Source of the DNA: a virus
Length of the DNA stretch: 64,000 nucleotides
Virus record (IMG/VR): IMGVR_UViG_3300047472_000309
Span: 62,001-126,000 of that record
Reading direction: 5' to 3' (one strand)
Shown: positions 447 through 63,655 of the stretch, piece after piece
Layout of the letters: the number at the start of each line of letters is the position of its first letter
Numbering within the stretch: position 1 is the first letter of the stretch
Made by a program: the position numbers and the translations under genes
Notes under the pieces: generated by a model
Told to the model about the DNA's origin: nothing
What the model saw: the letters and a program-made list of their open reading frames with translations, nothing else
Database searches by the model: none

Positions 447-478
447 CATAGAGGCCAGGGGAAACCCTGGCCCTTATG
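447..478. terminator. Bracketed hairpin, CATA/TATG type
   Basis: GGCCAGGG (453-460) pairs with CCCTGGCC (465-472) around a GAAA loop, with CATA at 447-450 and TATG at 475-478. It lies between two convergent genes. Confidence 0.8.
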
Positions 479-500
479 ACGTTGAAATAGACGATGAAGC

Positions 501-2027
501 TTAGTCGAACGTAATGCTCTTAGCCACGTAGCCTTGGCCGGTATCCTTGTTCGTGTAGACCCCACCAATCTGCCAGTGACCGTCGGGCCAGATGTAGTAG
601 CCGTTCTGGTTCTTGACACCCGGATCGCTCAGGTCATAAGCCTGACCGGTATCCGGATTGATCGTCTTCGGGTCCGGAGCCGGGTTGACCGTTTGTCCCG
701 TATTGGGCGAAACATTCGAGTAGCCGGTCGGCACTGTGATCGGTTGAGCCCCCGAAGCCAGTGCCAAGGGGTCTTGTGTGGAGGCCGACTGACTGTTGCC
801 CTCAAACACCGTCATCGGAAACTGCGAGGCCAGTTTGTCCGCCACGGTGGATTGCTGCACCACCCCTGCCAAAGCCATCACGTTGTTGGTGCGATCCGTG
901 GTGCTCGTCACGCCCTGCTGAATCACCTTCTTAAAATCATCCGAGCCATTGGTGATCGCATTCAGATTAAATGCCGGATCGTTTTGTGTCACGTCATTAC
1001 CGTCGGCATCGGTAATGGTGGTTTCCCGATTCAGCGTGGCCCAGTCTGGATCAACGCTACTGTACGCACTGGTCAGATTGCTAAAACAGTCCGCATAATC
1101 CACCTGGTTCGTATTGGACGAGGGTGGCGGCAAATAGTACGACGAACTGAAGTCCGCCAGGATGTTCGGGTTATAGGCGTAGGCGCCACGCGCCCCCAGG
1201 CTCGCACCAATTGACATTAGGCTGTGCACATCACCACTGGCAATCACTGAAGGCAATACCCTGGCCGTAATCTGCGCGAGCATGCCGCGATCCGTAATGG
1301 CTGCTGTGAGCGAGCCGAACGAATTCGGAATCCCGTAGCCGCACGAGGTTTGAATCAGGCCCGCATACAGACCGACCTTCACCCCAACGTCGTTGATATT
1401 GAAGTTCGCACTGATACCCAGCGAGTTAATACATTCCCCGAGCGCCTGCATGCCGCCCGCGTACGCCTGGTCCACTTGCTGCATCACCCCGCCTAGCTCA
1501 GCGTAGATCTGACTACCTACCTGACCCACGGCCTGGCCTACTGCGCCCTCGGCTGCACCAATTCCGGCATTGATGGAACTGGCGATATTGTCTAGTCCTG
1601 CTAGACCGAGCGCATTGAGCGCCCCTTTGGTGACGAGCGACGCCCCGAGGATGCGCGCCATGATGTCACCCTTTTGCAGCATGGTGACACCGCGCTGAAT
1701 CTGACCCGCTACGCGCAAGCCAGCGCGCAAGCCTGCCATCACCGCCCCGGCTTCCTGGGCGATAAACTTCCCCCCGCGCAAGACGTCGGAGATGGAGAAG
1801 TCAAACTTCTGAAACAGATTCTGGACGTCCGTGATGATGGCATTGCCACCAGGGGGATTGTAGACGTCCGCGGTAGCCAGCGCGTTATCCGCTGAGCCGA
1901 CCCAGGCATTTTGCGCCAGCGCGGCTTGCTGCGCAGACATTGCACCATTGACACCCGTCAGTGCCGTGCTGGTGCTCGCGGCCACAGCGTTAGTAGCGCT
2001 CTGAACCGCATCGGTAATAGACGGCAT
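501..2027 (-). CDS. Putative virion structural protein, Ala/Gly-rich
   Basis: 508 residues, with a good ribosome binding site (GAGGA, 5 nt before ATG). The N-terminal 200 residues are rich in Ala, Gly, Ser and Gln with repeated small hydrophobic helices (GAAEGAVGQAVGQVG), resembling injected or tape-measure-like virion proteins. The C-terminal 120 residues are Pro/Asn/Gln/Thr-rich with two related motifs, NTGQTVNPAPDPKTINPDTGQ, followed by an aromatic segment (YYIWPDGHWQIGGVYTN) that could form a small beta domain. No catalytic motif was seen. It is convergent with the truncated gene at the left edge and follows the 2106-2819 gene in the same direction. A virion role is inferred from composition and context only. 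Confidence 0.6.
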   Translation of the reverse strand: MPSITDAVQSATNAVAASTSTALTGVNGAMSAQQAALAQNAWVGSADNALATADVYNPPGGNAIITDVQNLFQKFDFSISDVLRGGKFIAQEAGAVMAGLRAGLRVAGQIQRGVTMLQKGDIMARILGASLVTKGALNALGLAGLDNIASSINAGIGAAEGAVGQAVGQVGSQIYAELGGVMQQVDQAYAGGMQALGECINSLGISANFNINDVGVKVGLYAGLIQTSCGYGIPNSFGSLTAAITDRGMLAQITARVLPSVIASGDVHSLMSIGASLGARGAYAYNPNILADFSSSYYLPPPSSNTNQVDYADCFSNLTSAYSSVDPDWATLNRETTITDADGNDVTQNDPAFNLNAITNGSDDFKKVIQQGVTSTTDRTNNVMALAGVVQQSTVADKLASQFPMTVFEGNSQSASTQDPLALASGAQPITVPTGYSNVSPNTGQTVNPAPDPKTINPDTGQAYDLSDPGVKNQNGYYIWPDGHWQIGGVYTNKDTGQGYVAKSITFD

Positions 2028-2059
2028 GGTGGTCCTCGAAACAAAAAAAGAAGAAGGGG

Positions 2060-2083
2060 CATAGGGGAGGCCGAAGCCTCCCC
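2060..2083 (-). terminator. Bracketed hairpin for leftward transcription
   Basis: GGGGAGGC (2064-2071) pairs with GCCTCCCC (2076-2083). On the minus strand TATG (2063-2060) directly follows the stem, at the end of the 2106-2819 gene. Confidence 0.75.
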
Positions 2084-2105
2084 GAGCGATACAACGCGAA
2101 CTGCG

Positions 2106-2819
2106 TTAGTGCCCGTTCCGTTCCGGATTGGGATTGAACACGTCGCTGTAGTCGGGTTTATCCGGACGACGCCCTTCCTTCATCAACGTCCGAATGCTCT
2201 CCATCCCACGGGTGAACCAGGGAGCAATCTGCGGACGAATCGGAAAACCGGGGTCGTTGGCGCTGGCTTCCTTACCACGAAAAATGTAGTAGTGATCGAA
2301 CGGCAACTCAGAAGCCACAAAGAGCGCTTTGAGGTGGTCATTCTGTTCGATCTTGAAGTAGTTCGCCTCCATAATGATCTGGTGAAAATTGGCGATCCAG
2401 CGCACACCCAAGTTGCGCGTCTCGCGCTTGGCCGTCATGCCGGAGACATAACGCCAGCGGTCATCGCGCGTTGTATCTCGCACATAGCCCCAGAATCCCT
2501 CGACTGAACGAAAGCGCCCAAACTGCGGGTGCTCGAACTTTGACGCGAACTGATGCACCAGCATGCGGCCCAATTCAGTCTGCGCAAACGCATCGATGTT
2601 GATATGCGTGTTACCGTCTTCCAGAACGAGCGGATGCACCGGCACCTGCACTTCCTCCGTTACTGCTTGCATGACATTCTCCGCGGGTTTGGCTCCCGTC
2701 CTTGTATTGTCTTGTGCGTTTGCCCCAGCGCCCGACTTCTCCTGGGACGCTTCTCGGCGGCGTTCGTCACTAATGTTCGGGAAACGCACTCTTCCCTTGC
2801 GTTCACGATCATTGAACAT
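2106..2819 (-). CDS. NADAR-like (YbiA/DUF1768-type) domain protein
   Basis: 237 residues, ATG preceded by AGGA. Residues 1-65 are charged and probably disordered. Residues about 70-185 show the NADAR pattern: S105-V-E107-G-F-W, a basic segment with K131, W141, then IIMEANYFKIEQN (147-160) and an L-K-A-L-F-V-A-S helix followed by PFDHYYIF. Known NADAR proteins cleave N-glycosidic bonds, including removal of ADP-ribose from guanine bases and cleavage of riboflavin-pathway intermediates. If the assignment holds, this protein could act on ADP-ribosylated nucleic acid or an NAD-derived metabolite in the infected cell. The resemblance is by eye and some expected residues differ (for example G-F-W instead of the usual H-Y-x after SVE). 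A putative ADP-ribosyltransferase lies at 60287-61009. Confidence 0.5.
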   Translation of the reverse strand: MFNDRERKGRVRFPNISDERRREASQEKSGAGANAQDNTRTGAKPAENVMQAVTEEVQVPVHPLVLEDGNTHINIDAFAQTELGRMLVHQFASKFEHPQFGRFRSVEGFWGYVRDTTRDDRWRYVSGMTAKRETRNLGVRWIANFHQIIMEANYFKIEQNDHLKALFVASELPFDHYYIFRGKEASANDPGFPIRPQIAPWFTRGMESIRTLMKEGRRPDKPDYSDVFNPNPERNGH

Positions 2820-2882
2820 TCCTTCTATCCTCGCGCTCGATTAGTTCAACCCGAGCTGACAGCACTCGGGAACGAAGATGGC

Positions 2883-3308
2883 TCATTCGTCTCCCTTAGG
2901 TGTGTTGTCAGTCAACGTCTGAGTAGGCACCGTGCGGTCGCCCAGATTCACATCTGTGCTAAACGCAATTTCACGCCCGTGTTTATCGCGCGCGATGATG
3001 CACACCTCGAAGTGAACAAACTGCATGAACATCATGGCCTTGCAGAACACTTTCCACGTCATCTGCGGCCGGGCGAATTCCTTCGTCAAATTCCCCCGCA
3101 TGCTGGTCTGATCCTTACGCGTATTCGGTACGCCGTTACGCGGATCGTTCAGGAACGCATGCATTAGGATGTTCCACCGGTTCTCATTGACGTTCATGGT
3201 CAGCAAGAGCTTCCGGAAGAGGCGAGAGAGCACCCCGTTCGGACCGTATGTGCCGCCTACGTCCTTGTCGGTTTTGGCGAGGATGTTCGCCATCTGATTC
3301 TTTGCCAT
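2883..3308 (-). CDS. Hypothetical protein
   Basis: 141 residues from the ATG at 3308, which is preceded by CGAGG with good spacing; an in-frame ATG at 3326 has no such site, so the shorter form is preferred. It contains the helical segment LSRLFRKLLLTMNVNENRWN and an aromatic stretch (VFCKAMMFMQFVHFEVCIIA) followed by a polar tail. No known family was recognised. It may bind another phage protein or nucleic acid (basic N-terminal half), but that is speculation. It lies in the leftward block between 3359-3919 and 2106-2819 genes and probably shares a transcript with them. Confidence 0.6.
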   Translation of the reverse strand: MAKNQMANILAKTDKDVGGTYGPNGVLSRLFRKLLLTMNVNENRWNILMHAFLNDPRNGVPNTRKDQTSMRGNLTKEFARPQMTWKVFCKAMMFMQFVHFEVCIIARDKHGREIAFSTDVNLGDRTVPTQTLTDNTPKGDE

Positions 3309-3358
3309 TTGTACCTCGCGTTTCAATTGTAAATCGCTATTAAGTCCTGCGCCTTGTT

Positions 3359-3919: not shown

Positions 3920-4035
3920 AACGCCCTCTTTGTAAATTCGCCTATTTACGGTGCCTTTTGACCGATACTATGACTCCAGCCCCCGTCAAGCATAGGGGCA
4001 TTGGATAAGGACACCTTGTTACTTATCTCCAATTA

Positions 4036-4043: not shown

Positions 4044-4069
4044 TCGCTGAGTTTTTTAAGGATACGACC

Positions 4070-4516
4070 ATGTCTGCACATCAGGAAGTCGAAGTCGTGG
4101 GGCCCGCCGATGCGGATGAGGCCGTACTCGACTATACCCAAGGAATGCGGAAGCAGATTGTTGGCGTGCTCGCTAAGAATCTGGAAAACCTCGCCGACCC
4201 CAAAATCGTGGGCACCATCTCCCAAGTGCTCGACGGCATGGACCGACAGGCGCTCGGTAAGATGAAGCTGCGCGTCGAAGAAGCGCAGGTGATGAATCAA
4301 GAAGGCATGGCGGCCAACATCGCGGAGATCTTGCGCCAGATGGGCAGCGGCGGTCATAACTTCCAAGCCGCTGAACCTGTTCCAAGGGAGGTTCCGAAGC
4401 TCGGAAGCGATGTACCCGACCCCGTCCTGGTGGAAGGGGAAGTTGCCACTACGCCGATTCAGCAAGACTTCGATTCGTTCCACGCTCAGTTTGCACCGGT
4501 GGACGGTGCAGACTAA
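4070..4516 (+). CDS. Hypothetical acidic protein
   Basis: 148 residues, ATG preceded by AAGGA with normal spacing, which is why I chose this strand over the long antisense frame (4019-4552). The N-terminal two thirds are helical (MRKQIVGVLAKNLENLADPK, ISQVLDGMDRQALGKMKLRV) and resemble small oligomerising phage proteins. The C-terminal third is acidic and Pro/Val-rich, probably flexible. It is an isolated rightward gene within a leftward block and is followed by a strong hairpin (4544-4601). A small-terminase-like or scaffold-like adaptor role would be possible, but there is no specific motif to support it. Confidence 0.6.
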   Translation: MSAHQEVEVVGPADADEAVLDYTQGMRKQIVGVLAKNLENLADPKIVGTISQVLDGMDRQALGKMKLRVEEAQVMNQEGMAANIAEILRQMGSGGHNFQAAEPVPREVPKLGSDVPDPVLVEGEVATTPIQQDFDSFHAQFAPVDGAD

Positions 4517-4543
4517 CGGAAACCCGCTCCAAACCGTGACTGT

Positions 4544-4601
4544 GCTCCGCACCCACCTCGACCGCTCCAGAAGTGGGGTCGAGGGGTGCGGGGCGTTTAT
4601 G
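4544..4601. terminator. Long bracketed hairpin
   Basis: The arm 4544-4563 pairs with 4577-4594 (one or two bulges). TTTATG at 4596-4601 follows. It ends the 4070-4516 gene and overlaps the end of the opposing gene. Confidence 0.75.
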
Positions 4602-11092: not shown

Positions 11093-11142
11093 CATAAACC
11101 CACTAACCCGCCCGTACCACTGGGGAGGTTAGTGGGAATATG
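11093..11142. terminator. Bracketed hairpin, CATA/TATG type
   Basis: CCCACTAACC (11099-11108) pairs with GGTTAGTGGG (11127-11136); CATA at 11093-11096 and TATG at 11139-11142. Between convergent genes. Confidence 0.8.
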
Positions 11143-17552: not shown

Positions 17553-17582
17553 CATAGAGGGAGGCTTCGGCCTCCCCTTATG
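17553..17582. terminator. Bracketed hairpin, CATA/TATG type
   Basis: GGGAGGC (17559-17565), TTCG loop, GCCTCCC (17570-17576); CATA at 17553-17556, TATG at 17579-17582. Between the SPRY protein and the spike gene. Confidence 0.8.
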
Positions 17583-22204: not shown

Positions 22205-22255
22205 CATAAACCCCCGTGCCTATCCTCTTCACAGGGGACGGGCCGGGGGTTTATG
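22205..22255. terminator. Bracketed hairpin with CATA/TATG inside the stem
   Basis: CATAAACCCCC (22205-22215) pairs perfectly with GGGGGTTTATG (22245-22255), so the flanks are part of an 11-bp stem. Between convergent genes. Confidence 0.8.
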
Positions 22256-28050: not shown

Positions 28051-28103
28051 CATAGAGGCCTTTCCCGCCCCTCGCAACCATGAGGGTAGGGAAAGGCCTT
28101 ATG
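28051..28103. terminator. Bracketed double hairpin
   Basis: AGGCCTTTCCC (28056-28066) pairs with GGGAAAGGCCT (28089-28099), with a second small stem in the loop. CATA at 28051-28054, TATG at 28100-28103. Between the fibre operon and the CYTH gene. Confidence 0.8.
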
Positions 28104-38273: not shown

Positions 38274-38307
38274 CATAAGCCCCCAGGCTTTCGCCTGGGG
38301 GTCTATG
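38274..38307. terminator. Bracketed hairpin, CATA/TATG type
   Basis: CCCCCAGGC (38280-38288), TTTC loop, GCCTGGGGG (38293-38301); CATA at 38274-38277, TATG at 38304-38307. On the minus strand a run of T (plus-strand A-run at 38259-38268) follows, so it may also act as a classical terminator leftwards. Follows the portal gene. Confidence 0.85.
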
Positions 38308-42177: not shown

Positions 42178-42207
42178 CATAAGACGGAGGGGCCGAAGGC
42201 ACCCTCC
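42178..42207 (-). terminator. Bracketed hairpin for leftward transcription
   Basis: GGAGGG (42186-42191) pairs with CCCTCC (42202-42207), with an inner GCC/GGC stem and GAA loop. Minus-strand TTATG follows. It separates 42233-42637 from paralogue member D. Confidence 0.75.
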
Positions 42208-42232
42208 ATCTCATGCTCAGTCGTCGTAAGTT

Positions 42233-42637
42233 TTACTTCTGCTGCGAGGGACCCACATGCGCCCAGATCGTGTTAGCGGCAATGAGAAGCTCTTCTTCGA
42301 TTGCCTCGACAAAGAGTTCTTCGGTTTTACCATCGTGCAGCCACAGATCAAAGAATCGCCCTGTACCCGGTTCATCATCCCGATAGTACTCCCTCATCGA
42401 CACGTACGGGACCTGTTGGCCCATCCGGGTTAAGTCAATGAAGTAGAACTGGGTGTGTGCGTGACTGTCTTCTGACTCGCACACGTACATGGTTTTCAGC
42501 TGAATGCTCGGATATGCCGAGCGCACTGCTAACAGCTTAGCCTGCAGAATTCCCATGATGGCGTAGCCGAACGGATTCGGTACGTTATCAGCCATCGGAA
42601 CGGTTTCAGGAAGGGCAGGTTTCTTACGGGCGCTCAT
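42233..42637 (-). CDS. Hypothetical protein
   Basis: 134 residues, GGAG before ATG. Aromatic and acidic (QLKTMYVCESEDSHAHTQFY, ISPPYVSMREYYRDDEP-like centre) with a helical end (LFVEAIEEELLIAANTIWAH). Not a member of the neighbouring paralogue family by the shared pattern. Ends just before the hairpin at 42178-42207. Confidence 0.55.
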   Translation of the reverse strand: MSARKKPALPETVPMADNVPNPFGYAIMGILQAKLLAVRSAYPSIQLKTMYVCESEDSHAHTQFYFIDLTRMGQQVPYVSMREYYRDDEPGTGRFFDLWLHDGKTEELFVEAIEEELLIAANTIWAHVGPSQQK

Positions 42638-44641: not shown

Positions 44642-44681
44642 CATAAACCGAGACAAGGAAAAAAATCCTTGTCTCGTTATG
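44642..44681. terminator. Bracketed hairpin, CATA/TATG type
   Basis: CGAGACAAGGA (44649-44659), A6 loop, TCCTTGTCTCG (44666-44676); CATA at 44642-44645, TATG at 44678-44681. First of two hairpins in the 208-nt gap between 44616 and 44825. Confidence 0.8.
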
Positions 44682-44785: not shown

Positions 44786-44813
44786 GCCTGGGGATCACTC
44801 CCCAGGCGCTATG
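44786..44813. terminator. Hairpin with U-rich run leftwards and TATG rightwards
   Basis: GCCTGGGGA (44786-44794) pairs with TCCCCAGGC (44799-44807). The minus strand continues into a T-rich run (CTTTCTTTTTTG), the most classical intrinsic terminator here; TATG at 44810-44813 is on the other side. Ends the 44825-46897 gene. Confidence 0.8.
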
Positions 44814-46952: not shown

Positions 46953-48653
46953 TTAGTGAGACGCACTGAATTGACGGACCCGACTACCGTAGGGTTTCAG
47001 CTTGACCTGGGTGGAGTCCAGCAACTCAATGAGAGCCGGGTCGCGCAGCACGACACCCTTGGAGTCCGTATGCAGATGCGGATTCAAGCGTGCATGCCCG
47101 GAAGGATCACTCTTGGGCAGATTCGCATACCCGCCGACTTCACACACCGAAATGTGGATCTTCTTCGTCGGGTCACTGATTGCCGCGTTGTCCTTCCGCC
47201 CCGTTTGGCGACTGGAGCTCGTTTGCGGCACCAACTGGGCGGTCGTTTTGAACGCCTTGTTGTCGCCAGGACACGAAATCGTCGAGACCTCACCGTGCTT
47301 CTTGGTGATCGAGTACACCAGACCGGTCCGCAGCGTCTGGTTCATCATGGTCGTGATTTCTTTCGTGTTCAGTTCTTTCTTCGAAGCCGCCTTCAGCTTG
47401 AAGTAGAACTTGTTGATTTGCTTGGTGATTTCGTCGAGCACGTAATACAGCACCGACAATTCCTTGTCGTACATGCTACTGACGTGATCCCGCGCCGCGA
47501 GAATCCAGTCCTGGAAGTTCTCGAGCACAATACCGAAGAGCTGGTAAATGTCCTCGATCGGCATCCCGATGTCGCGGAACTTGATCTTCATCACCTCATC
47601 GATGTACTCATCCAGGCTACGGATGTGCTCAGCGATGTCGTCCTCCAGCTTACCTTCGGTGATGTTGCTGGAGAACAGCAGATGACCCATCAGAATCATC
47701 CACAAGGCACGCTCCCGAGGCTTGGGTGCATCGATCGTGCCCAGATACTTCGGCTGGACGCGGCTCGGGAAGTGATCGACGATGTAGAAGAACCCACACA
47801 CCAGGTTTTTGACCATCGGCGTGTAATCCTCCCGGCGGATAGCCAGGCGTATCGTCGTCGGCGTATACTGCTTAAGCGTATACGTGCGCGCAGGCCGCGT
47901 GTGGGTGTTGGTCTTCACGATCACCCAGTCGCTTGGCGGATACTCCGCTTCGCTAATGGTGCTCGCATCCCCCACGATCGGCACGGTGCCGCCGAAGCGC
48001 TGGAACATTTCCGCAAATCCATACTTACACAGCAAGTAGTGAACGAGCGTGGTGTTCGCTTTGATGACCGGCTTAAGCTTTTGCATCTTCTGGTTCTTGT
48101 TGTACACCAAGGACCAGGCCACGTGAACTGTCTCACGGAAATCCCGCCCCGTGACATCGTTCGCGAGATAATGCTGCTGCTCGCGCTGGAACGTCAGCTT
48201 CGCGCGGATGAGCTTCACGAAGATGGAATCCTCCCCCTTCGAGATTACTCGGTCGGCCAAAATCGGCGAGATCACAAAGCGTGAGCCGCCGAGATAAATC
48301 ACCCCAGCATCGGACACAAACGGGAGATACATGTACCGCTTGATTTCCTCCGTCTTACCGTTCTTGTCGGTATGGCGAAAGATGTACTTCATCATGTAAA
48401 TGTCCGACCTGGCCACATCGAACATCCGTTTGTTGTTCTTCTTCCGAGTTGCCTCGTCGAATTCCTCTTGTGGGGTACAGCGCTCTCCTCTCACATAGGT
48501 GAAGCCATCCGGAAAGCCTTTAGCCACGGCTCGGAATACCGAGTCAACCCAGCCTTCAGCTTCCTGCATGTGCTTCTGTGCCAAGCCGCCCGCCAAATCC
48601 GGATTCAATTTGGGGGTGTGTTGATCAATTAGCCGAGAAAGTTCGCGGTCCAT
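46953..48653 (-). CDS. RNA polymerase beta subunit, N-terminal fragment
   Basis: 566 residues. Residues 108-137, MYLPFVSDAGVIYLGGSRFV then ISPILADRVI, align with the bacterial RpoB segment [22 protein letters not shown], which forms the N-terminal beta lobe; the following helix-rich part (FVKLIRAKLTFQREQQHYL) continues it. It lacks the C-terminal catalytic lobes, as expected for phiKZ-type polymerases, which split beta and beta-prime into separate polypeptides. From memory, phiKZ gp123 is the N-terminal beta piece of the non-virion polymerase and lies near the capsid gene (gp120), so this gene fits by both sequence and position. It would transcribe phage late genes. Confidence 0.7.
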   Translation of the reverse strand: MDRELSRLIDQHTPKLNPDLAGGLAQKHMQEAEGWVDSVFRAVAKGFPDGFTYVRGERCTPQEEFDEATRKKNNKRMFDVARSDIYMMKYIFRHTDKNGKTEEIKRYMYLPFVSDAGVIYLGGSRFVISPILADRVISKGEDSIFVKLIRAKLTFQREQQHYLANDVTGRDFRETVHVAWSLVYNKNQKMQKLKPVIKANTTLVHYLLCKYGFAEMFQRFGGTVPIVGDASTISEAEYPPSDWVIVKTNTHTRPARTYTLKQYTPTTIRLAIRREDYTPMVKNLVCGFFYIVDHFPSRVQPKYLGTIDAPKPRERALWMILMGHLLFSSNITEGKLEDDIAEHIRSLDEYIDEVMKIKFRDIGMPIEDIYQLFGIVLENFQDWILAARDHVSSMYDKELSVLYYVLDEITKQINKFYFKLKAASKKELNTKEITTMMNQTLRTGLVYSITKKHGEVSTISCPGDNKAFKTTAQLVPQTSSSRQTGRKDNAAISDPTKKIHISVCEVGGYANLPKSDPSGHARLNPHLHTDSKGVVLRDPALIELLDSTQVKLKPYGSRVRQFSASH

Positions 48654-49887: not shown

Positions 49888-49962
49888 AAGTCCCTCTACT
49901 GCGTGAAAGTTAAGCCGAGTACATCGCATCTCAGCTGGCCTATTCATTCTGATGCCAGTTTA

Positions 49963-49970
49963 GTAATATG
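49963..49970 (-). promoter_or_regulatory. Early-promoter-like element CATATTAC
   Basis: Minus-strand CATATTAC within the ten-base sequence TTAGTAATAT (plus strand, 49960-49969) that also occurs at 4033-4042. It lies 76 nt upstream of the 48709-49887 start and points at it. Differs from TATATTAC by one base. Confidence 0.45.
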
Positions 49971-49995
49971 TAATTGAAAGAATCTTGAGCAGCGG

Positions 49996-50029
49996 CATAA
50001 TAGCCGAGGCTTGCGCCTCGGCGTCTATG
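49996..50029. terminator. Bracketed hairpin, CATA/TATG type
   Basis: GCCGAGGC (50003-50010), TTGC loop, GCCTCGGC (50015-50022); CATA at 49996-49999 and TATG at 50026-50029. Confidence 0.8.
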
Positions 50030-50033
50030 ACGG

Positions 50034-50071
50034 CATAAAACACCCAGCGAGGGTAGCTGGTTAGGCTACCC
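50034..50071 (-). terminator. Hairpin with CATA flank
   Basis: GGGTAGC (50051-50057) pairs with GCTACCC (50065-50071); CATA at 50034-50037. It overlaps the end of the possible 34-residue ORF. Confidence 0.6.
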
Positions 50072-50165
50072 CCACCTTCGGAGACATCAAGGAGTTCCGT
50101 TGCCAGTTCCCCTCAATAGATATCCTAACGCAGTAAGGAATTACGGCCAGCAGTTTTGACGCCAT
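50061..50165 (-). CDS. Possible 34-residue small protein between two hairpins
   Basis: Reads MASKLLAVIPYCVRISIEGN and 14 more residues, with AAGG seven bases before its ATG. It lies alone in the 478-nt gap between the capsid gene and the 48709 gene, with a hairpin on each side (50034-50071 overlaps its end; 50198-50229 is upstream). Coding is suggested only by the ribosome binding site and by its isolation as a separate unit. Confidence 0.3.
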   Translation of the reverse strand: MASKLLAVIPYCVRISIEGNWQRNSLMSPKVGVA

Positions 50166-50197
50166 CGACTCACCTTCTGAAGGGCAGGCAAGAACGG

Positions 50198-50229
50198 CAT
50201 AAAGCCCAAGGTTTCCCTCGGGCCTCATG
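50198..50229 (-). terminator. Hairpin with CATA flank
   Basis: GCCCAAGG (50204-50211) pairs with CCTCGGGC (50216-50223) with one mismatch; CATA at 50198-50201, CATG on the right. Confidence 0.6.
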
Positions 50230-50291
50230 TTTGCAAACGGTGCTGCCCATGTTCCCATGGGTGTTGTGCCTGGCCATGTAACCATAGACAG

Positions 50292-50326
50292 CATAAATAG
50301 ACCTCGCCCAGGACTCCCTGGGCGAG
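50292..50326 (-). terminator. First hairpin after the capsid gene
   Basis: CTCGCCCAGG (50303-50312), ACTC loop, CCTGGGCGAG (50317-50326), a perfect 10-bp stem; minus-strand TTATG follows (CATA at 50292-50295). Confidence 0.8.
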
Positions 50327-50425
50327 ACCTACACAGCCCCAACAGCTGCACCGACGCATGGCTCAAGGCTAACCTGAGTAGATCTGAAATCCACCCAGGT
50401 CAGTTACATCAACCAAGCGTGTTCT

Positions 50426-52630
50426 TCACGACACCGTGTGCATGTTGACCGCAACCTTCGCCGTCACCACGTCTTCGATGCCGCTCACGTCGATCGAACC
50501 CATGATCGGCAGGTTCACGACGTGCAGGAACGACGGCTGGACCGTGATTTCCTTGCTGTTCGCGCCGTTGCGGTGCAGCGGGAGAATCAGCGTCAGTTCC
50601 GGCTTCCATGCCATGTTGCCGAAGTGCATCGGGTTCGGCACGCCTTCCTTGCCTTCACCGAATTCGCCGAACGACATGCGGATCTTGCCGCGCATGTTGA
50701 TGTTCAGCGTCGACACGATCTTCACGTTGAAGTCGTTGCCGAGCGTACGGAAGTCGCCCGTGACTTGCAGGTAACGCGCGATGACCGGGTCCGTACCGAT
50801 GATGACGGTCGGCGTAGCAGCGATGCCGCCAGCCAGTGCGTCTGCAGCAGCCTTGTAGCCCGAGTCGCGGTACATGCGGTAAGCCATGTCGCGCAGGATG
50901 TTGATCAGCGAGGCCTGGATGTCGGCCGCACGCTCGTGCGACTTGATCGAGTCCACCACCGCCGGTGCGTTGTAGTCTTGGTGCTCGTAGAACGGAGTCA
51001 CCAGGAAACGCGCCACGCCGAGGATTTCCGGATCGCCTTGATACAGACCACCGTTGGCCGTGACCAGTTCCTTCAGCGCCGTTTCGACGTCCAGCAGCTT
51101 CGCCACTGCAGCGTTCGACGTACGGATGTGCGTTGCCGTGATCAGTGCAGCCAGATCGCTTGCGTCGTTCTGGTCACCCAGCGTCAGCGGACGCGGAATC
51201 GTGATCGGCGACAGCAGCGGCACGCCGTAAACCATGTTGTAGAACGTGAGGTCGAGCAGCTGACCGCGTTCACGACGGTTCGTGTTGGTGCGACGTGCGT
51301 CGAGGTCGTAACCGACGATCGATGCGCCAGCCAGCGCCGTAGCGATGGTTGCGCCTGCGCCCGTGGTCGGGTCGACGATGTTGCCGTCTTCGTCACGGAT
51401 TTCGTAGATCGACACTTGACCAGCCGACAGTTGCGTGTCAGCGAGTTCGAGGTTCACGTTGCCGAACACTTGCACCGACAGCTTGACTTCGTAGTTGCCT
51501 TGCACGATCGGCGCGAGCACCGTCGAAGCCGAGCCGTCGGCCTTCTTCGTGTTCACGTTCAGCACGAGCGCGTTGCTGATGAAGTTCAGCGTCATCAGAC
51601 GGTAGTTGTTCTGCACCGAGTACGTGAACGTGCCCGATTGCATGTTGGCAACCGACTTGAACTTGATGACTTCGGCCGAGCCGCCCGAGCCGACTTGCAG
51701 GTACAGCGAGCTCAGCTTGATCGCCGGGTCGATTGCGTCGGTCGAATCCAGCATGCCGGTTTCGAGCAGCGCGTCGGTTTGCGAGATGCCGAGCAGCGAG
51801 AACGACTTGCCGATCGCGAGCGGCGCCGTCTTGATCGACACGCCTTCGTGTTCGATGTCCGCAGCCGGAACCAGGCCGGTCGCGACGAAATTCGCTGCGC
51901 TTTCCGGACGGTAGACCGGGACGATCTTCGAGAGGTCGTTGCGCAGGATGGTCGGGTCGATCAGGGCCTGGATGATGTTCTTCTTGCCGAAGTTCTTGCT
52001 CAACGCGCCGTCGATGGTGCGACGAACTTCGTCGTACACTTGCACGAGGCGAATCGACACGGTGTAGCCGTACTGGTCCGGCGTGACGACGACGGTCGGG
52101 AAGAATGCTTCGCCGAATTCGTCTTGACGTGCTGCTTGCAGGTTGTACGCCACCGAGTACACGGTAGCCGACTTCGTTTCACGCTCGTCGTAGGCTTCGA
52201 GCGCCTTCGACTGACGGTGATCCATCGCGCCGTTGCCCATCGCGGGGATGAACGTGTGGCCTTCGAGCGAAACCTTGCGTGCGACCGGTGCCTTCAGGAA
52301 GCCAGCCATGTCGCCCGCGACGATTGCCGCGACCAGACCTGCTTGCTTTTGCGCGACGGTGTGCTTGCCCTTGATCAGGCCGTCGTTCGCGTTCAGTTCA
52401 GCCGCGAATTGCGAGCTGATCGATTCGAGCGACGTCTTCAGACCCTTCACCGAGCCTTCGAGTTCGAGCTGCGTGGTTGCGTCGAGCGATTCCATCGCGA
52501 CGACGGACGATGCCAGGCGCTTTTCGATGTGCGGGCCGCTGCGGTTGACAGCATGTTGGACCTTCGCAACCAGCGAGTTGATCGTGCCGTCCTGGCCAGC
52601 GTTGCCGATTTGATACAGTTTGGAAGACAT
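50426..52630 (-). CDS. Major capsid protein precursor
   Basis: 734 residues, close to the 747 of phiKZ gp120. Residues 1-123 are a helical, Ala/Lys/Glu-rich propeptide; S121-L-E123 followed by GHTFIP is a probable prohead-protease cut, leaving a mature protein of about 611 residues. The next region, DEFGEAFFPTVVVTPDQYGY, resembles the HK97-fold N-arm/E-loop boundary seen in phiKZ-type capsid proteins. Base use is the most biased in the window, with strong third-position C/G, as expected of a highly expressed gene. Three hairpins follow it (50292-50326, 50198-50229, 49996-50071). Confidence 0.85.
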   Translation of the reverse strand: MSSKLYQIGNAGQDGTINSLVAKVQHAVNRSGPHIEKRLASSVVAMESLDATTQLELEGSVKGLKTSLESISSQFAAELNANDGLIKGKHTVAQKQAGLVAAIVAGDMAGFLKAPVARKVSLEGHTFIPAMGNGAMDHRQSKALEAYDERETKSATVYSVAYNLQAARQDEFGEAFFPTVVVTPDQYGYTVSIRLVQVYDEVRRTIDGALSKNFGKKNIIQALIDPTILRNDLSKIVPVYRPESAANFVATGLVPAADIEHEGVSIKTAPLAIGKSFSLLGISQTDALLETGMLDSTDAIDPAIKLSSLYLQVGSGGSAEVIKFKSVANMQSGTFTYSVQNNYRLMTLNFISNALVLNVNTKKADGSASTVLAPIVQGNYEVKLSVQVFGNVNLELADTQLSAGQVSIYEIRDEDGNIVDPTTGAGATIATALAGASIVGYDLDARRTNTNRRERGQLLDLTFYNMVYGVPLLSPITIPRPLTLGDQNDASDLAALITATHIRTSNAAVAKLLDVETALKELVTANGGLYQGDPEILGVARFLVTPFYEHQDYNAPAVVDSIKSHERAADIQASLINILRDMAYRMYRDSGYKAAADALAGGIAATPTVIIGTDPVIARYLQVTGDFRTLGNDFNVKIVSTLNINMRGKIRMSFGEFGEGKEGVPNPMHFGNMAWKPELTLILPLHRNGANSKEITVQPSFLHVVNLPIMGSIDVSGIEDVVTAKVAVNMHTVS

Positions 52631-53463: not shown

Positions 53464-55017
53464 ATGAATAACCGACTCCTTTTGGTGAATGCAATCACCC
53501 TGCTTTACCGCGAAAGTCAATTGCCACCGACGATGGAGCGTAGCCAGAATCTGGTCCGCAACATTGTGTCCACCATCAAGATGCCTGAGGTGAACCTCAC
53601 GCTTGATCCTGAAACCGAGACGCTTGCGGGTCTGAAGAGCTGCGCACTGGCAATGTGCGACACGCCGCAGGACCATCAGTACGAGCCGCTCGAAATCATG
53701 CAGCGCATGAAGGTGGTCTGTGGGGAAGACCAAGCGATGTATGAAGCGTTTGAACAAGGTATTAGCTCGGAGCTGCAAGAAGGCTCGCTGAAGCGTACCT
53801 GCCTGAACATCCGCCGTACGTTGCAGAATTACTTCCGCGAAGAGAAGGTCAAAGAGATCTTGCACCGCGCAGGCGTCGCGGTGAAGTTCAACCGTGAGAA
53901 CATCACGGACATGAAGCAGTTCGTCGCCGAAGTGTGTGCCGAGCTGGAGCCCTATCAGCAAGATGCCGTCACCAAAGATCCGGCGATTGTCTCACACGTC
54001 TCGTTTAGCAACCTGGACTCGATGGCCGAAGTGTTTAAGGACATTCAGCAAGAGTCCAACGGTAACTCGATTTTGCGCACCGGCTGGCAGGGCATTAACC
54101 GCATGCTGCGCGGAGGCTTCCGCCGTGGCGAGCAGGTGGTGATCGGCGCGCTGCAGCACAAGTACAAAACGGGCTTTACGCTGTCGATCTTCAAACACCT
54201 GGCACTCTACAATGTGCCGGAGATGATTGATCCGACCAAGAAGCCCTTGCTGTTGCGGATTTCGTTTGAGGACGACATCAACAACAACATGCGTTTCCTG
54301 TATACGTCGCTCAAGGAAAACGAGACCGGCGTCGCGGTGACTGATAAGGAACTCGAAGGGGCAGATCCGCAAGAGATTGCGGCGTACGTGAAGGAGAAGA
54401 TGGGGGTCAATGGTTATCACATTGACATGCTGCGGGTGGACCCGACCAAGTGGTCGTACATGGACATCTGCAACAAGCTCATCGAGTACGAAGCGGACGG
54501 CTACGAAATCCATGCGCTCATCGTCGACTACCTGTACATGGTGCCGACCACCGGTTGCTCGCAAGGCCCGGCCGGTCACGACGTGCGCGACATGTTCCGT
54601 CGGATGCGTAACTTCACCAACCCGCGCAAGATCACCTTTATCACGCCGCACCAGCTCTCCACCGAAGCCAAGCAATTGGTGCGCGACGGCAAGACCGACT
54701 TCGTGAAGGAAATCGCGAACAAGGGCTACTACGCCGGTAGCCGTCAGATTGACCAGGAAGTGGATCTGGAACTCTACATTCACATTGAAATCGTGAATGG
54801 CCAGTCCTGGCTCACGGTGCAACGCGGTAAGCACCGGATTGTGGGACAGACCCCGTTGATTGATCAGTACTGCGTGCTACCCTTCCAACCGGTTGGGGGT
54901 ATTCTGGACGATCTGAACGGGCCGGACACGACGCGCCGTAAGGTGGGCGGGGGTCCGATTGGTAGTACCGATGAAACGCCGTGGTTTGCAGCGCTGGATG
55001 ACCCTTTGCAACTCTAA
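53464..55017 (+). CDS. DnaB-like RecA-fold ATPase with altered Walker A
   Basis: 517 residues. TGWQGINRMLRGGFRRGEQVV (207-227) matches the DnaB C-terminal entry TG-x-x-x-L-D-x-x-x-GG-x-x-G-E. The Walker A position reads GALQHKYKTGFT (229-239), in which the usual G-K-T is Y-K-T. Walker B is LIVDYLYMV, as DnaB VDYLQLM, and ITFITPHQLS supplies the downstream sensor. The N-terminal 180 residues differ from the DnaB N domain. It would be the replicative helicase or a helicase-like ATPase with weakened nucleotide binding. Confidence 0.65.
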   Translation: MNNRLLLVNAITLLYRESQLPPTMERSQNLVRNIVSTIKMPEVNLTLDPETETLAGLKSCALAMCDTPQDHQYEPLEIMQRMKVVCGEDQAMYEAFEQGISSELQEGSLKRTCLNIRRTLQNYFREEKVKEILHRAGVAVKFNRENITDMKQFVAEVCAELEPYQQDAVTKDPAIVSHVSFSNLDSMAEVFKDIQQESNGNSILRTGWQGINRMLRGGFRRGEQVVIGALQHKYKTGFTLSIFKHLALYNVPEMIDPTKKPLLLRISFEDDINNNMRFLYTSLKENETGVAVTDKELEGADPQEIAAYVKEKMGVNGYHIDMLRVDPTKWSYMDICNKLIEYEADGYEIHALIVDYLYMVPTTGCSQGPAGHDVRDMFRRMRNFTNPRKITFITPHQLSTEAKQLVRDGKTDFVKEIANKGYYAGSRQIDQEVDLELYIHIEIVNGQSWLTVQRGKHRIVGQTPLIDQYCVLPFQPVGGILDDLNGPDTTRRKVGGGPIGSTDETPWFAALDDPLQL

Positions 55018-55049: not shown

Positions 55050-55059
55050 GCTAGGTGTG

Positions 55060-55103
55060 ACACTTGGGCCTGACCAGCCCAGGTGTTGCCCTAGCCTTTT
55101 ATG
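55060..55103 (+). terminator. Bracketed hairpin, TATG type
   Basis: ACACTTGGGC (55060-55069) pairs with GCCCAGGTGT (55077-55086, one G-U); TTTTATG follows (TATG 55100-55103). After the DnaB-like gene. Confidence 0.75.
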
Positions 55104-57297: not shown

Positions 57298-59427
57298 ATG
57301 AAACGACGCATGAGCCTGGAGAGCATTGCTGCTCTGGGTATGGAATCCTTCGACTCGTCCCCCACAGGCAATGTTCAGCCGACGATGCAGGGCGAAACCC
57401 CGGAGCAGCCCCTCATCACCGCAGGCTACAACGAATCACCCTTCAGTGGTTCGGAGAACTATGCAGCGGAGAAGCTGGCCCAGCGAGTCAAGGAAGCCAT
57501 CGAGAAGCCGCTCTTTCCGGTGCGCTACGCTTCGGAAGCTGACGCCATCGTGGTGGACGACGATGAATTCGACGCGCTGATTCGTTCCTCGACAGCTGCC
57601 ACGTCGGTCTGGGACGACGACAGCCAGGTCTCGCTTGAAGCCAAGGACAGCAACAAGCTGGCGGTCGCCAAGAACAAGCTGCACGGGCGCTTTAAGAAGA
57701 TGTTTGAGGGCTGGAAAGATGGCTGGCGCACCATGCCCGGTCTCATCAAGAAGTACGAGGCACGGCTCGCCGAGCTGCAGAAGGAACTCAACGGCACGAT
57801 CATCCGCGGCCCGCTCGATGTGAATCTCTCGGGCCTGTGGCAGCACTTCTCCAACGACGCCGGTCCGATCCACAACAACTTCATGCACAAGGTGCAGGAG
57901 GACTTGGCGTTCTCGAGCTATATCCTCGGCGACTTCTCCAAGGAAGCGATGGCTCAGCTGCGTAAGCTGGAGATGGCCCTGCACACGGGTCAAGGCAACT
58001 CCGACGAAGAAGCCAAGCGCACAGCACTGGATCTCGAGAAGCTCGAAGCCCCCTCGATGTACCTGGACCACAAGTGGATGTGTGTCTCGGGTGAGCAACC
58101 GTATCTGTCGGTCACGGGTATCTACGCCAACCAAGGGCGTGTGCCGCGTCCCGTGGCGATTGGTGGCATGTCGATGGAGAAGCTCGCCAAGATGGCGATG
58201 CCGTTCCATGTACGCGAGTACGGCTCATTCCTGCACGGCATGAAGAAGCTCTTCGTGAACGGTAGCAAGGCGAACGTGCGTTTGACTGAGAACGATCTGG
58301 AGAACCTGCTCAAGGCCGGTCAGACGTACCTGGAAGGTGCGCGCAGCTACATGGATAACTACCATAACAGCTGGCCGATCTTCCGGCGTATTGACGAGTC
58401 GCTTGAGCTGATCTGGAAGGACTTCGATCTGACGGACTACTCGATCACGCTGGGCGATGAAGAGGACGAAGACGCCGTGGAAATCAGCTGGCAGACGTCG
58501 GGTACCGGTGACGTGACACGCCGCGCTGCCCTCTACGACCAGATCCTGATGGTGGTGCAGAACTTCGCCGACTCAGTGGTCGCACCGGGTAGCCACGAAG
58601 CGCATCGCGCGGTGCGGGCAGCGAAGTTCCACTGCTACTTGCTCGAGGCTGCGCTGAAGGCCGCGAAGTCAGCGGCGATGGAAAGCGAGAGTCTTGCGAT
58701 GGAAGCACGCGGCTTTAAGGGTCTGCAATTGGCTCAGGAGTTCTTCTGGAACAATAAGCCTCACAAGCCTGAGGAATACGTGGCGCCTAAGTGGAAGGAC
58801 ATCCCGAAGCCGCAATGGGACCCGAAGCACCCGCCCTCAATCGCTGAATCGGTGAAGGCCCTGCGTGCTGCTATGCAAGAGCACGATCCCGAAGCTCTCA
58901 AGACGTTTAATCGTCCGGCGACTCCTCAGGAGCTGCAAAAGCTCGAAGCCCTGGTCAAGCAACACACCGGCAAAGGTTTGCCCCCGCAATTGGTCGAGCT
59001 GTACAAGATCTCCAATGGCGGTGTGGATAGCTACCGCCACCTGCGTCTGTTTGACTTCGATGATTTCATGCCGATTCAGCAGGTCATCCAAACCTACGAG
59101 TTGTTCTTGCACTTGACCGAGAATGACTGGGCGGGTGACGAGTCGGAGATTGAAACCGGTATGCAAGGCAAGCGGTATTGGGAACCATGGTGGATTCCCT
59201 TCACCGCCAGCGGTAGTGGCGACCATTTCTGCGCGGATGTGAATCCGGGTGGCGGTGGGCAAACTGGTCAGGTGATCGACTGGTGTCATGATTACCACGC
59301 TCGTCGGGTGGCTGCCCCGAGTATTGCAGCATTCTTGGCGATGTCGATTCATCGTCAGTTATACCTGATCCAACACAAGAAGGATTGGGACGCCAAGAAC
59401 GGTGGCGGGCAAGCAGCACAGAAGTAA
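57298..59427 (+). CDS. Inner-body-like virion protein fused to a SUKH (SMI1/KNR4) domain
   Basis: 709 residues. The N terminus MKRRMSLESIAALGMESF has S-L-E at 6-8, and S112-L-E114 is followed by a Lys-rich amphipathic segment (KLHGRFKKMFEGWKDGW), the processing pattern of the other inner-body candidates. A helical middle follows. Residues about 538-690 are a SUKH domain: TPQELQKLEALV, LPPQLVELYKISNGGV, LRLFDFDDF, YWEPWWIPF, GDHFCADVNPGGGGQTGQVI and a closing FLAMS helix. SUKH domains are toxin-immunity proteins in bacteria. If the protein is ejected with DNA, the domain could neutralise a host factor. Confidence 0.75.
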   Translation: MKRRMSLESIAALGMESFDSSPTGNVQPTMQGETPEQPLITAGYNESPFSGSENYAAEKLAQRVKEAIEKPLFPVRYASEADAIVVDDDEFDALIRSSTAATSVWDDDSQVSLEAKDSNKLAVAKNKLHGRFKKMFEGWKDGWRTMPGLIKKYEARLAELQKELNGTIIRGPLDVNLSGLWQHFSNDAGPIHNNFMHKVQEDLAFSSYILGDFSKEAMAQLRKLEMALHTGQGNSDEEAKRTALDLEKLEAPSMYLDHKWMCVSGEQPYLSVTGIYANQGRVPRPVAIGGMSMEKLAKMAMPFHVREYGSFLHGMKKLFVNGSKANVRLTENDLENLLKAGQTYLEGARSYMDNYHNSWPIFRRIDESLELIWKDFDLTDYSITLGDEEDEDAVEISWQTSGTGDVTRRAALYDQILMVVQNFADSVVAPGSHEAHRAVRAAKFHCYLLEAALKAAKSAAMESESLAMEARGFKGLQLAQEFFWNNKPHKPEEYVAPKWKDIPKPQWDPKHPPSIAESVKALRAAMQEHDPEALKTFNRPATPQELQKLEALVKQHTGKGLPPQLVELYKISNGGVDSYRHLRLFDFDDFMPIQQVIQTYELFLHLTENDWAGDESEIETGMQGKRYWEPWWIPFTASGSGDHFCADVNPGGGGQTGQVIDWCHDYHARRVAAPSIAAFLAMSIHRQLYLIQHKKDWDAKNGGGQAAQK

Positions 59428-59441
59428 GCAGTAAGCGTAGC

Positions 59442-59477
59442 GAGGGAGCGGCTCGAGAGGGCCTGCTCCCTCTTATG
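59442..59477 (+). terminator. Bracketed hairpin, TATG type
   Basis: GAGGGAGC (59442-59449) pairs with GCTCCCTC (59465-59472); TTATG follows (TATG 59474-59477). After the SUKH fusion gene. Confidence 0.75.
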
Positions 59478-60283: not shown

Positions 60284-60286
60284 GAA

Positions 60287-61009: not shown

Positions 61010-61030
61010 TCCTTTTCACATTGGACCAAC

Positions 61031-62266
61031 ATGAAATCCTTTAACATGCGCGCCGCGCTCGAAGCGCGCCCGATTGAAGACCAAGATCTGGAAGACACCG
61101 CCAAGCCTGCGCCGGACGCAGGTCAGATCGATGGCGACACCACGACGCTCTCCGGCATGGCCAAGCCCGGTCAGAATCCGGTGCCCGATACGGAAAACGT
61201 CGCTACTGAAGGCACTGAGAAGATCGATACGCGTCCGGTGGATCTGGACGATGTCGTCTTGCTCGAGCAAGATCGCCGCGCCTTTGAGCCGCAGTCGGAA
61301 GGCAGTGCTGAGCACGATGCGATCAACGCGCAGAACATCGCCCAGGAAGGCTGGATCAGCAAGAAGTTCGAGAATGTCAAGGACTTCTTCATGCATCGTG
61401 AGAAGGAACTCGAAGATGGCCACACAGCCACCAAAGAGAACCTGGAAGCGATTGCGCGCCTGCGCACCAAGTTGCAAGTACGCGCGGGTGAAGTCACCCG
61501 CGATGCGGACACCGTCACGATCAGCAAGTACGCCAAGTGGCTCTCGATCGACGGCAAACACATCACCGATCCCGCGCGACTGATTCGTGAACTGCAACGC
61601 GTCTACGAGCTCGTGCAATGGTCGGGCAATCTGGATAAAGCCTGGCTCGAGGGCTACAAGTTCGTGGCGGACCAGATCTGGAAGCTCGGCGAGACGGACC
61701 TGAAGAAGGCCAACGAGAATCTGAAGAAGATGTGGGAAGTCACGCGGCCGCAAGGCGCCGAGAAGTGGCTCACGGTTAACAAGCCGGTCCAGTTCAAGGG
61801 CAAGGAATACATCGACAAGCATTCGCCGTTCTTCCTCGGTCAGTGGTGCGTCTTTGAGATCTCCCAAGAAGAAGACAACCATGCACCGGGCGGGATTGTT
61901 GAAATCCAGCGCATGAAGTCGATGAAGGCTGTCGGCGGGGGTGAATTCCCGGCGTTGACCAAGGCCCAGATGAAGCAAGTGCTCGACATCTGTGAAAAGA
62001 TCGAAGCGCATCTGGTGTCCATGACCTTCGATGGCCGCATCATCGATCGTTATCTGGACGCGCTGGATGAATTCGCGTATCGCTATCGCAACTTCAAGTC
62101 GCTGTCGCGCGAAGACCAGACACTCGCTTCGCGTCTGTATGCCTGGGGCCAGCTCATCATGCAGCACGACACGACTTTCCTGCCGACGGCTTTTAGCAAC
62201 CACCTGGTGAAGGTGATGTTGAGCTACGTCGAGAAGTCGATGCGTCGCATTGAAGTCGATCAGTAA
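61031..62266 (+). CDS. Inner-body/ejected virion protein candidate
   Basis: 411 residues. The N-terminal 100 residues are acidic and Pro-rich (propeptide-like). A104-Q-E106 followed by GWISKKFENVKDFF matches the shared processing motif and amphipathic start; the next gene has the identical A-Q-E-G. The remainder is helical with no enzymatic motif. In phiKZ the inner body proteins are cut by the prohead protease in the same way. 21 bp after the ADP-ribosyltransferase gene and 12 bp before the next, so co-transcribed. Confidence 0.65.
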   Translation: MKSFNMRAALEARPIEDQDLEDTAKPAPDAGQIDGDTTTLSGMAKPGQNPVPDTENVATEGTEKIDTRPVDLDDVVLLEQDRRAFEPQSEGSAEHDAINAQNIAQEGWISKKFENVKDFFMHREKELEDGHTATKENLEAIARLRTKLQVRAGEVTRDADTVTISKYAKWLSIDGKHITDPARLIRELQRVYELVQWSGNLDKAWLEGYKFVADQIWKLGETDLKKANENLKKMWEVTRPQGAEKWLTVNKPVQFKGKEYIDKHSPFFLGQWCVFEISQEEDNHAPGGIVEIQRMKSMKAVGGGEFPALTKAQMKQVLDICEKIEAHLVSMTFDGRIIDRYLDALDEFAYRYRNFKSLSREDQTLASRLYAWGQLIMQHDTTFLPTAFSNHLVKVMLSYVEKSMRRIEVDQ

Positions 62267-62278
62267 AAGGAGTCCCTC

Positions 62279-63601
62279 GTGGAAGAAGTCAATCAAGAAG
62301 CGACGATCGTCACCCTGAGTGATGACGTCGAATGCAATCGCCTGAACGATGCGCTCGATAAGCTGGGCGAGTTGGGTACGCGACTGCAAGCAGACGGTCA
62401 ACTGACAGTCGACGTGGCGCTCGAACATCAGGCCCTCACCGGTAGCAATACCCTGGTGAATACCTACTACAGCACGCTCGGCAAGCAACAGAAGCTCAAA
62501 GTGGCTCAGGAAGGCCTCTACGAGCAAGCCAAGAGCCTGCTGAAGAAGGCGATGGACCTGCTGTGGGAAATGATCGTCAAGGTCTGGAAGTGGCTGCAAA
62601 AGCTCTTTGTGAATGGCGTGCCCATGACCGAAGCAGCCCTCGCCCGCGAGAACGAGAAGTTTAAGTCCTTCGTGATGCCGGTGCAAAAAGCCGAACGGGT
62701 TCCGAGTTCACGCACTGCCATCATCCAGGCTGTCCGGGAAGAAGGCCTGAACGAAGCGTTCGTGAGCAAGCTCACTCCGGAAGAGATGGACATCTACAAC
62801 GAGGGTCCGTACCATCAGGCAGTGCAGCGCATGATTCCGGCGCTGGATGGCTTCAATGTGGCGAGTGTCGTCGAGACGCTGGTGAAGTGGCACGAGAAAT
62901 GGTTGCCTGCCGGTCGCCAGTTTGATCAGGACAACGCAGGGGCTGATCCCCATGCGCTTCAGGACAAGCTGGAACGCTTCCAGAAGGACGCTCAGACCGA
63001 TCTGGAGCACGCGACCTCCATGGCTACCAAGCTCATGCAGATCCGCCTGGAGAGCTACCAGACGGCTGTGGAAGCCCGTCGAAAACTGAAGGTCGATCCG
63101 AACTTCCATCTCGGTACCGATCTCTCGGGCATCATGGCGCGTGGTGTGCGCATCTACGACCAGTCGGGCTACAAGAAGATGGGTTCGGCCCTGACCGATG
63201 TCTTCAAGTCCCTCGACTCAACGGTCAAGAAGATGGAGTCGATTCGCACCAAGGCCTACCAGAATCCGATGCCCAACGACCATGGCGGGGCCAAAGCGGG
63301 CGAGGAGTGGATCGAGCAGATCTACATGAAGGAAGTCAATCGGATCATTTCGACGCTGCATCAGTGCGTCTCGATGATTCAGTTGATCAACAACTACTAC
63401 TCGTTCGTGGTTGGCTCGGGCAAAACCATCATGAAGTACGTGATGACGGTGGCGCAGAAGGCCATTCAGCACGGTGGTGATGCTGCCTCGCTGCAAGAAA
63501 TCGTGCGTAGCGGTAGTTCGGCACTGATGGGCATGGCTGCAGATGGTTCGCAAATGGCAGCGCAGCAACAAGCTGCCGGTATGCAAACCGACATGGGTTA
63601 A
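62279..63601 (+). CDS. Inner-body/ejected virion protein candidate
   Basis: 440 residues starting at GTG (GGAG, 6 nt). A76-Q-E78 precedes GLYEQAKSLLKKAMDLLWEM, a long amphipathic helix (WEMIVKVWKWLQKLF continues it), suggesting membrane contact after processing. The C-terminal half is a long helix bundle, ending in a Met/Gln/Ala-rich tail (QMAAQQQAAGMQTDMG). Same operon as 61031-62266. Confidence 0.65.
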   Translation: MEEVNQEATIVTLSDDVECNRLNDALDKLGELGTRLQADGQLTVDVALEHQALTGSNTLVNTYYSTLGKQQKLKVAQEGLYEQAKSLLKKAMDLLWEMIVKVWKWLQKLFVNGVPMTEAALARENEKFKSFVMPVQKAERVPSSRTAIIQAVREEGLNEAFVSKLTPEEMDIYNEGPYHQAVQRMIPALDGFNVASVVETLVKWHEKWLPAGRQFDQDNAGADPHALQDKLERFQKDAQTDLEHATSMATKLMQIRLESYQTAVEARRKLKVDPNFHLGTDLSGIMARGVRIYDQSGYKKMGSALTDVFKSLDSTVKKMESIRTKAYQNPMPNDHGGAKAGEEWIEQIYMKEVNRIISTLHQCVSMIQLINNYYSFVVGSGKTIMKYVMTVAQKAIQHGGDAASLQEIVRSGSSALMGMAADGSQMAAQQQAAGMQTDMG

Positions 63602-63622
63602 GCGTAAACGACGCTAGAACGG

Positions 63623-63655
63623 CATACGAGGCCAGGGTTTCCCCTGGCCTCTATG
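63623..63655. terminator. Bracketed hairpin, CATA/TATG type
   Basis: AGGCCAGGG (63629-63637), TTTC loop, CCCTGGCCT (63642-63650); CATA at 63623-63626, TATG at 63652-63655. Its stem is almost identical to that of 453-472 at the other end of the window. Confidence 0.85.

Follow-up and report, generated by a model that had tools for sequence, protein, structure and literature searches.

A GC-rich hairpin followed by TATG as a likely strand-specific transcription terminator in phiKZ-like phages

A directional hairpin-TATG motif at gene 3' ends

The stretch of DNA analyzed here (the window; 64,000 nt, positions 62001-126000 of a 310,654-base virus record) belongs to a phiKZ-like phage in which many gene 3' ends are marked by a GC-rich hairpin followed by TATG on the transcribed strand, mostly at a distance of 0-3 nt counted from the last GC pair. 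The same motif is present in Burkholderia phage FLC9, the nearest named relative of the record and the sole named phage with nucleotide similarity to it (megablast, first 50 kb). That these sites act as terminators is strongly supported by the data given below. We propose, with a probability of about 0.6, that they are strand-specific composite terminators in which TATG replaces the U-tract and the phage non-virion RNA polymerase (nvRNAP) is stopped via the pocket of its gp123 subunit. Genes of both genomes were taken from a simple codon-usage caller; thus, a few small genes or starts may be wrong.

In the record, the consensus extends beyond the tetramer to YYTATG(C/A)C(G/C)(T/C), mainly YYTATG(C/A)CGT. 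The family-wide form after the hairpin is TATG-C-C-G-T, that of phiKZ is TATG-T-Y-G-T, and both agree with a family consensus TATG-Y-Y-G-T, in which G and T are preferred past the YY positions. Hairpin loops are often of the UUCG or GAAA type. The sites share the GC-rich hairpin at gene 3' ends with canonical intrinsic terminators; yet, in the record, most hairpin-TATG ends have no U-tract directly after the stem. As the sequence-only reading of the window had held, U-tracts are scarce: TTTT lies between stem and TATG in 5 of 63 TATG ends and within 20 nt past TATG in 17 of 63. No known Rfam RNA family was matched in the window at the gathering score.

Read on the other strand, CATA becomes TATG; the motif is thus a single directional one and a CATA on the left of a hairpin is its copy for that strand. 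Therefore, the CATA-hairpin-TATG arrangement at convergent gene ends is best read as two opposed terminators with one common hairpin. This follows from the sense-sided position of TATG at single-direction ends, where 31 of 37 TATG-bearing ends are without CATA, from the independence of the two words, and from the lack of such hairpins in divergent regions. At single-direction ends, a 5' CATA is independent of a 3' TATG both in the record (odds ratio 1.2, p=0.76) and in FLC9 (odds ratio 1.1, p=1), which indicates that in these two genomes TATG is more than an extension of the stem and led us to reject stem extension through CATA/TATG pairing as the only reason for the signal. Across the wider family the two words are modestly associated (odds ratio 2.4, p=0.0075).

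Sites in the window

We located the signal at about 16-17 hairpins in the window, close to the "about nineteen" of the sequence-only reading. Convergent double terminators with TATG on both strands lie at 447-478 (CATA-GAGGCCAGGG(GAAA)CCCTGGCC-CTTATGACG; both TATGs are kept in the FLC9 orthologue, while the stem is changed), 11093-11142 (a long imperfect hairpin), 17553-17582 (a UUCG-loop hairpin), 22205-22255, 28051-28103 (with an extra TATG 8 nt downstream; FLC9 counterpart at 77744-77843) and 63623-63655. At another convergent double terminator, 38274-38307, the minus side also has a U-run after TATGACGC; its stem is wholly different in the FLC9 orthologue, with the flanks unchanged. An exception is the long hairpin at the convergent gene ends at 4514-4599, which bears neither TATG nor CATA.

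Minus-strand terminators follow the genes at 2106-2819 (hairpin-TATGCCCC at 2060-2083, with a U-run about 10 nt beyond) and 42233-42637 (hairpin-TATG at 42178-42211). Between tandem minus-strand genes, a hairpin at 44642-44681 carries TATG on both strands. The hairpin at 44786-44813 is exceptional in that its TATG, on the plus strand, faces antisense and a U-tract stands on the sense (minus) side. On the plus strand, the DnaB-like helicase gene (53464-55017) is followed at 55057-55103 by an imperfect hairpin and, at a longer spacing, CCTAGCCTTTTATGCCGC, and the gene at 57298-59427 by hairpin-TATGCCGT at 59442-59477.

Three hairpins are located 3' of the major head protein gene (50426-52630): a minus-strand hairpin-TATG at 50292-50331, a minus-strand hairpin-TATGCCGTT at 50198-50225, and a hairpin with TATG on both strands at 49996-50029. 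They stand in series (49948-50425), as if termination were reinforced behind this gene.

Genome-wide counts and controls

Nearly all convergent gene ends of the record and FLC9 carry the pattern, and thus bear out the claim of the sequence-only reading that both flanks occur between convergent genes. Two tetramers stand out in these regions, TATG and CATA: given first-order composition, convergent intergenic regions of the record hold 20 TATG versus 3.5 expected and 15 CATA versus 3.6, and those of FLC9 hold 16 versus 2.2 and 13 versus 1.9, respectively. When stems followed by N0-4 and a tetramer were counted genome-wide, stem+TATG was found 85 times in intergenic and 10 times in coding DNA of the record, far above other tetramers after stems (control stem+CATA 2 and 4; stem+TTTT 39 and 11). 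The intergenic/coding counts for FLC9 are 79/8 for TATG, 2/1 for CATA and 49/10 for TTTT. The sequence-only reading would have been undermined had the words been no commoner here than beside random stems; the 85 intergenic cases with TATG against two with CATA dispose of this.

TATG follows 26 of 30 convergent hairpin sides in the record (dinucleotide-shuffle mean 6.4, maximum 13 in 200 shuffles) and 33 of 81 tandem gene-end hairpins (mean 8.4, maximum 15), so that the observed counts were never reached in these conservative shuffles. We also considered the start codon of the next gene as the source of TATG and rejected it, as the signal persisted once starts were trimmed. The expected 3' placement at single-direction ends was recovered: at tandem ends TATG is found 3' of the hairpin in 35 of 77 cases and CATA in 4 of 77 in the record, compared with 36 of 87 and 1 in FLC9. 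About half of the tandem hairpins are without TATG, and some tandem ends use U-tracts. Divergent intergenic regions have no such hairpins, neither in the record (0/17) nor in FLC9 (0/17).

Occurrence in the family and in control phages

Scanning with an alignment of seven gp123 sequences gave 78 viral-contig loci; family counts refer to these loci after removal of near-identical ones and with the named phages added. Among 106 convergent hairpins of the family, TATG stands on the right of 68 and CATA on the left of 77, while the opposite words (CATA right, TATG left) occur at 5 each. For 315 tandem hairpins, TATG is on the right in 125 and CATA in 13, and the 131 divergent regions contain a single TATG-bearing hairpin. 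The pattern recurs in phages with gp123 identity down to about 30%. In phiKZ, 20 of 24 convergent hairpin sides have TATG; many of its convergent ends (L029, L030, L109) repeat a near-identical stem, GCCCTCCC...GGGAGGGC followed by ATTATG.

The controls were small samples. In a 50-kb stretch of AR9 no TATG was found at 13 gene-end hairpins (4 convergent, 9 tandem), and the convergent ends have U-tracts instead. In a 50-kb stretch of RaK2, the convergent ends (2 hairpins) likewise have U-tracts and no TATG, and TATG follows 2 of 11 tandem hairpins. One related group of loci (L091, L094, L095), with gp123 about 34% identical, has U-tract hairpins with no TATG seen at tandem ends; the core pocket residues of its gp123 are nonetheless kept.

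Selection on stem, word and coding sequence

A comparison of orthologous gene ends in the record and FLC9 showed hairpin-TATG in both genomes at 50, in the record only at 5 and in FLC9 only at 6, i.e., TATG is kept in FLC9 at 50 of 55 orthologous record ends. The stems are rewritten between orthologous ends, mostly by changes on both sides: across the inner 8 stem positions of the 50 common ends, we counted 148 both-side versus 31 one-side changes. Stem sequences vary among sites as well as among orthologues, with no long fixed word within the stem.

Coding-sense TATG is depleted relative to synonymous shuffles in FLC9 (331 versus 703, the most depleted of 256 tetramers), in the record (356 versus 697) and in phiKZ (702 versus 798); this depletion is absent in AR9 (330 versus 324) and RaK2 (328 versus 328). 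In the record and FLC9, NNT codons precede ATG about half as often as they precede ATC and, compared with the other NNT codons, TAT is scarce before G. Neither effect is seen in RaK2, and phiKZ has only the NNT-before-ATG effect, in weaker form. In part, the depletion could be due to selection against stray promoters and not against stray terminators.

The gp123 pocket as candidate reader

The sequence-only reading had named TATG as a phiKZ late promoter element, and correctly so (PMC4666361, PMC12809450). The late promoter of phiKZ nvRNAP is TATG with its G as the start; when bases of the word are substituted, transcription is strongly lowered or lost (PMC4666361). A pocket under the β-lobe of phiKZ gp123 takes up the TATG of the opened non-template strand; the pocket opens as the lobe rotates by about 8 degrees, and it is not complete while the complex is transcribing (PMC12809450). 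The window encodes a homologue of this nvRNAP β-like subunit on the minus strand (46953-48653), which is a candidate reader of the signal. Eight of the 14 published phiKZ pocket residues are identical in this protein (S144, F151, K158, N186, K190, H331, S334, and Q466), H185 and Y406 are replaced by Y and F with the aromatic character kept, and S330, N398, Y399, and S402 are not conserved. In the family, S144, F151, H331, S334, and Q466 are found in 96-100% of gp123 proteins and positions 185 and 406 are always aromatic; mean identity to phiKZ is 0.535 for pocket residues versus 0.317 overall (random-set p=0.0046). The AR9 homologue is divergent, also at the pocket, and the AR9 late promoter differs (AACA-N6-TA/G; PMC5312081).

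Termination or 3'-end formation by a phage polymerase, as the sequence-only reading had suggested, gains support from the gene-end position, strandedness and family conservation of the motif and from its absence at the AR9 and RaK2 convergent ends examined. We infer that RNA ends at these sites, that nvRNAP rather than vRNAP is responsible, and that the gp123 pocket is the reader. In the proposed mechanism, TATG would enter the non-template strand of the nvRNAP bubble when the hairpin has just been extruded; the β-lobe pocket, which recognizes TATG at late promoters, would then grip the word and hold the enzyme in a pause, during which the hairpin could pull the transcript out and the paused nvRNAP would lose its RNA. 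A more tentative extension, which we hold as possible but doubtful, is that one word serves both ends of transcription: the pocket would recapture the TATG behind the hairpin, stopping elongation, and re-initiation from the same TATG may follow.

Several features count against this mechanism, among them the incompleteness of the pocket during transcription, the four residues that differ in the window homologue, and the many tandem ends that lack TATG. The extended CCGT part is left unexplained by a four-base pocket. In bacterial terminators, the stem base lies 7-9 nt from the RNA 3' end; with TATG at -3 to +1 it would lie only about 5 nt away, below this range. Moreover, an early/late split, with TATG for nvRNAP and U-tract or TATT for vRNAP, gave no difference in the record or FLC9. 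In both genomes, TATG terminators occur equally often close to early-type promoters; therefore, the signal is not clearly restricted to nvRNAP. A split is hinted at in phiKZ tandem ends (p=0.045, under a loose definition of early promoters), and it looks stronger with zoning defined by eye, which is partly circular. Putative early tandem terminators of phiKZ (L112, 232-265 kb; L029, 0-12 kb) tend to hairpin-TTTATT rather than hairpin-TATG, with weak statistics, and hairpin-TTTATT is a possible vRNAP variant.

Alternative explanations

Termination might also proceed without TATG being read by the pocket, through a weak UAU RNA-DNA hybrid combined with ordinary pauses at YG steps, so that the RNA would end about 8 nt past the stem, at TATGYY|G. 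With a stem spacing of about 2 nt, this end falls within the range typical of intrinsic termination (7-9 nt), and both the G and T favored after YY in the family consensus and the T-rich sequence further on at many sites suit this reading. Yet, a weak hybrid needs no exact tetramer, while TATG far exceeds other tetramers, is itself selectively depleted within genes, and is unused in AR9 and at RaK2 convergent ends; we thus regard this as rather unlikely, and note that its predicted RNA ends lie 3 nt from those of the pocket model. Cleavage by a nuclease at UAUG, with the hairpin shielding the new 3' end, would be a 3' maturation signal, which agrees with the gene-end position and strand specificity of the motif as well as termination does; moreover, a phiKZ 3'UTR RNA, PHIKZ298, is thought to be a product of processing (PMC8545117). 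However, the hairpins of this 3'UTR have no TATG behind them, for which reason we rejected it as RNA-level support. The motif also tracks phages with a TATG-promoter polymerase and is commonest between convergent genes, which need termination the most, and we identified no nuclease specific for UAUG. Processing at TATG seems improbable.

The same reading had combined termination with outward initiation; the first part is upheld by position, strandedness and conservation, and the second is not. Initiation by nvRNAP at the G of a hairpin-flanking TATG, whether on its own or in combination with termination, draws on the identity of the word with the late promoter (PMC4666361), but the elements are not placed as promoters upstream of genes: the hairpins are absent from divergent regions of the record and FLC9, with one TATG case in 131 such regions of the family, and at convergent ends initiation would run antisense into the neighboring gene. 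A promoter would further be expected to have no consensus beyond TATG, whereas an extension (C/A)CGT is present here and is lacking from the TATGs of divergent regions (TATG[AC]C[GC] in 2 of 54). The intergenic region of the mapped promoter P119L has, by eye, TATG without the hairpin element. Taken as the function of these sites, outward initiation is therefore highly improbable. Least credible of all is a DNA-level signal, such as a protein-binding palindrome or an uptake- or packaging-like repeat, found at gene ends by chance. The inverted-repeat shape at convergent genes would fit it, and uptake-sequence terminators provide a precedent for fixed words within terminators (PMC1852404); on the other hand, most single-direction ends have TATG on the sense side alone, an uptake-type sequence would be longer than this word, and the free change of stem sequence with pairing kept points to RNA.

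Comparison with known systems

Bacterial intrinsic terminators resemble the composite hairpin-TATG terminators in their GC-rich gene-end hairpins and in the bidirectional copies between convergent genes, but most sites described here have TATG(Y)(Y)GT after the stem instead of a U-tract. The class II pause/termination signal of T7 RNAP is likewise a sequence-specific stop for a phage polymerase, though with a different word, no hairpin and an unrelated single-subunit enzyme. In the uptake-sequence terminators of Neisseria and Haemophilus the word lies in the stem, unlike here, where stems vary freely and TATG is outside the GC stem. What they have in common with our sites is a fixed word recurring at terminators (PMC1852404). 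The phiKZ nvRNAP late promoter shares the tetramer, the phage family and a pocket largely conserved in the window gp123 homologue, but the signal reported here stands at gene 3' ends after a hairpin and has a conserved downstream YYGT (PMC4666361, PMC12809450). AR9/PBS1-type jumbo phages also possess their own multisubunit RNAPs and gene-end hairpins; in contrast, their convergent hairpins have U-tracts and no TATG, and their late promoter is AACA-N6-TA/G (PMC5312081).

The accessible reports on phiKZ-family polymerases cover initiation, and we found in them no account of stopping. Nor did we find a hairpin-TATG terminator described in the accessible literature, so that the novelty of the signal is provisional. 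A compact, sequence-specific terminator found across the family and built on the promoter word would permit terminator annotation across nucleus-forming phages, where U-tract-dependent predictors would be expected to miss many such sites. The signal also makes it possible to ask directly if a multisubunit polymerase can use its promoter-recognition pocket during elongation.

Two further words were noted upstream of genes. One of them, the phiKZ-type early promoter word TATATTAC, shows conservation at this position in the record and FLC9; it occurs in the window at about 4036 (minus strand), and about 10 intergenic copies lie 5' of genes across the record. The top enriched upstream 8-mer in the record, and the second in FLC9, is AACAAGGA, with 15 copies in each, which is probably an extended ribosome-binding site.
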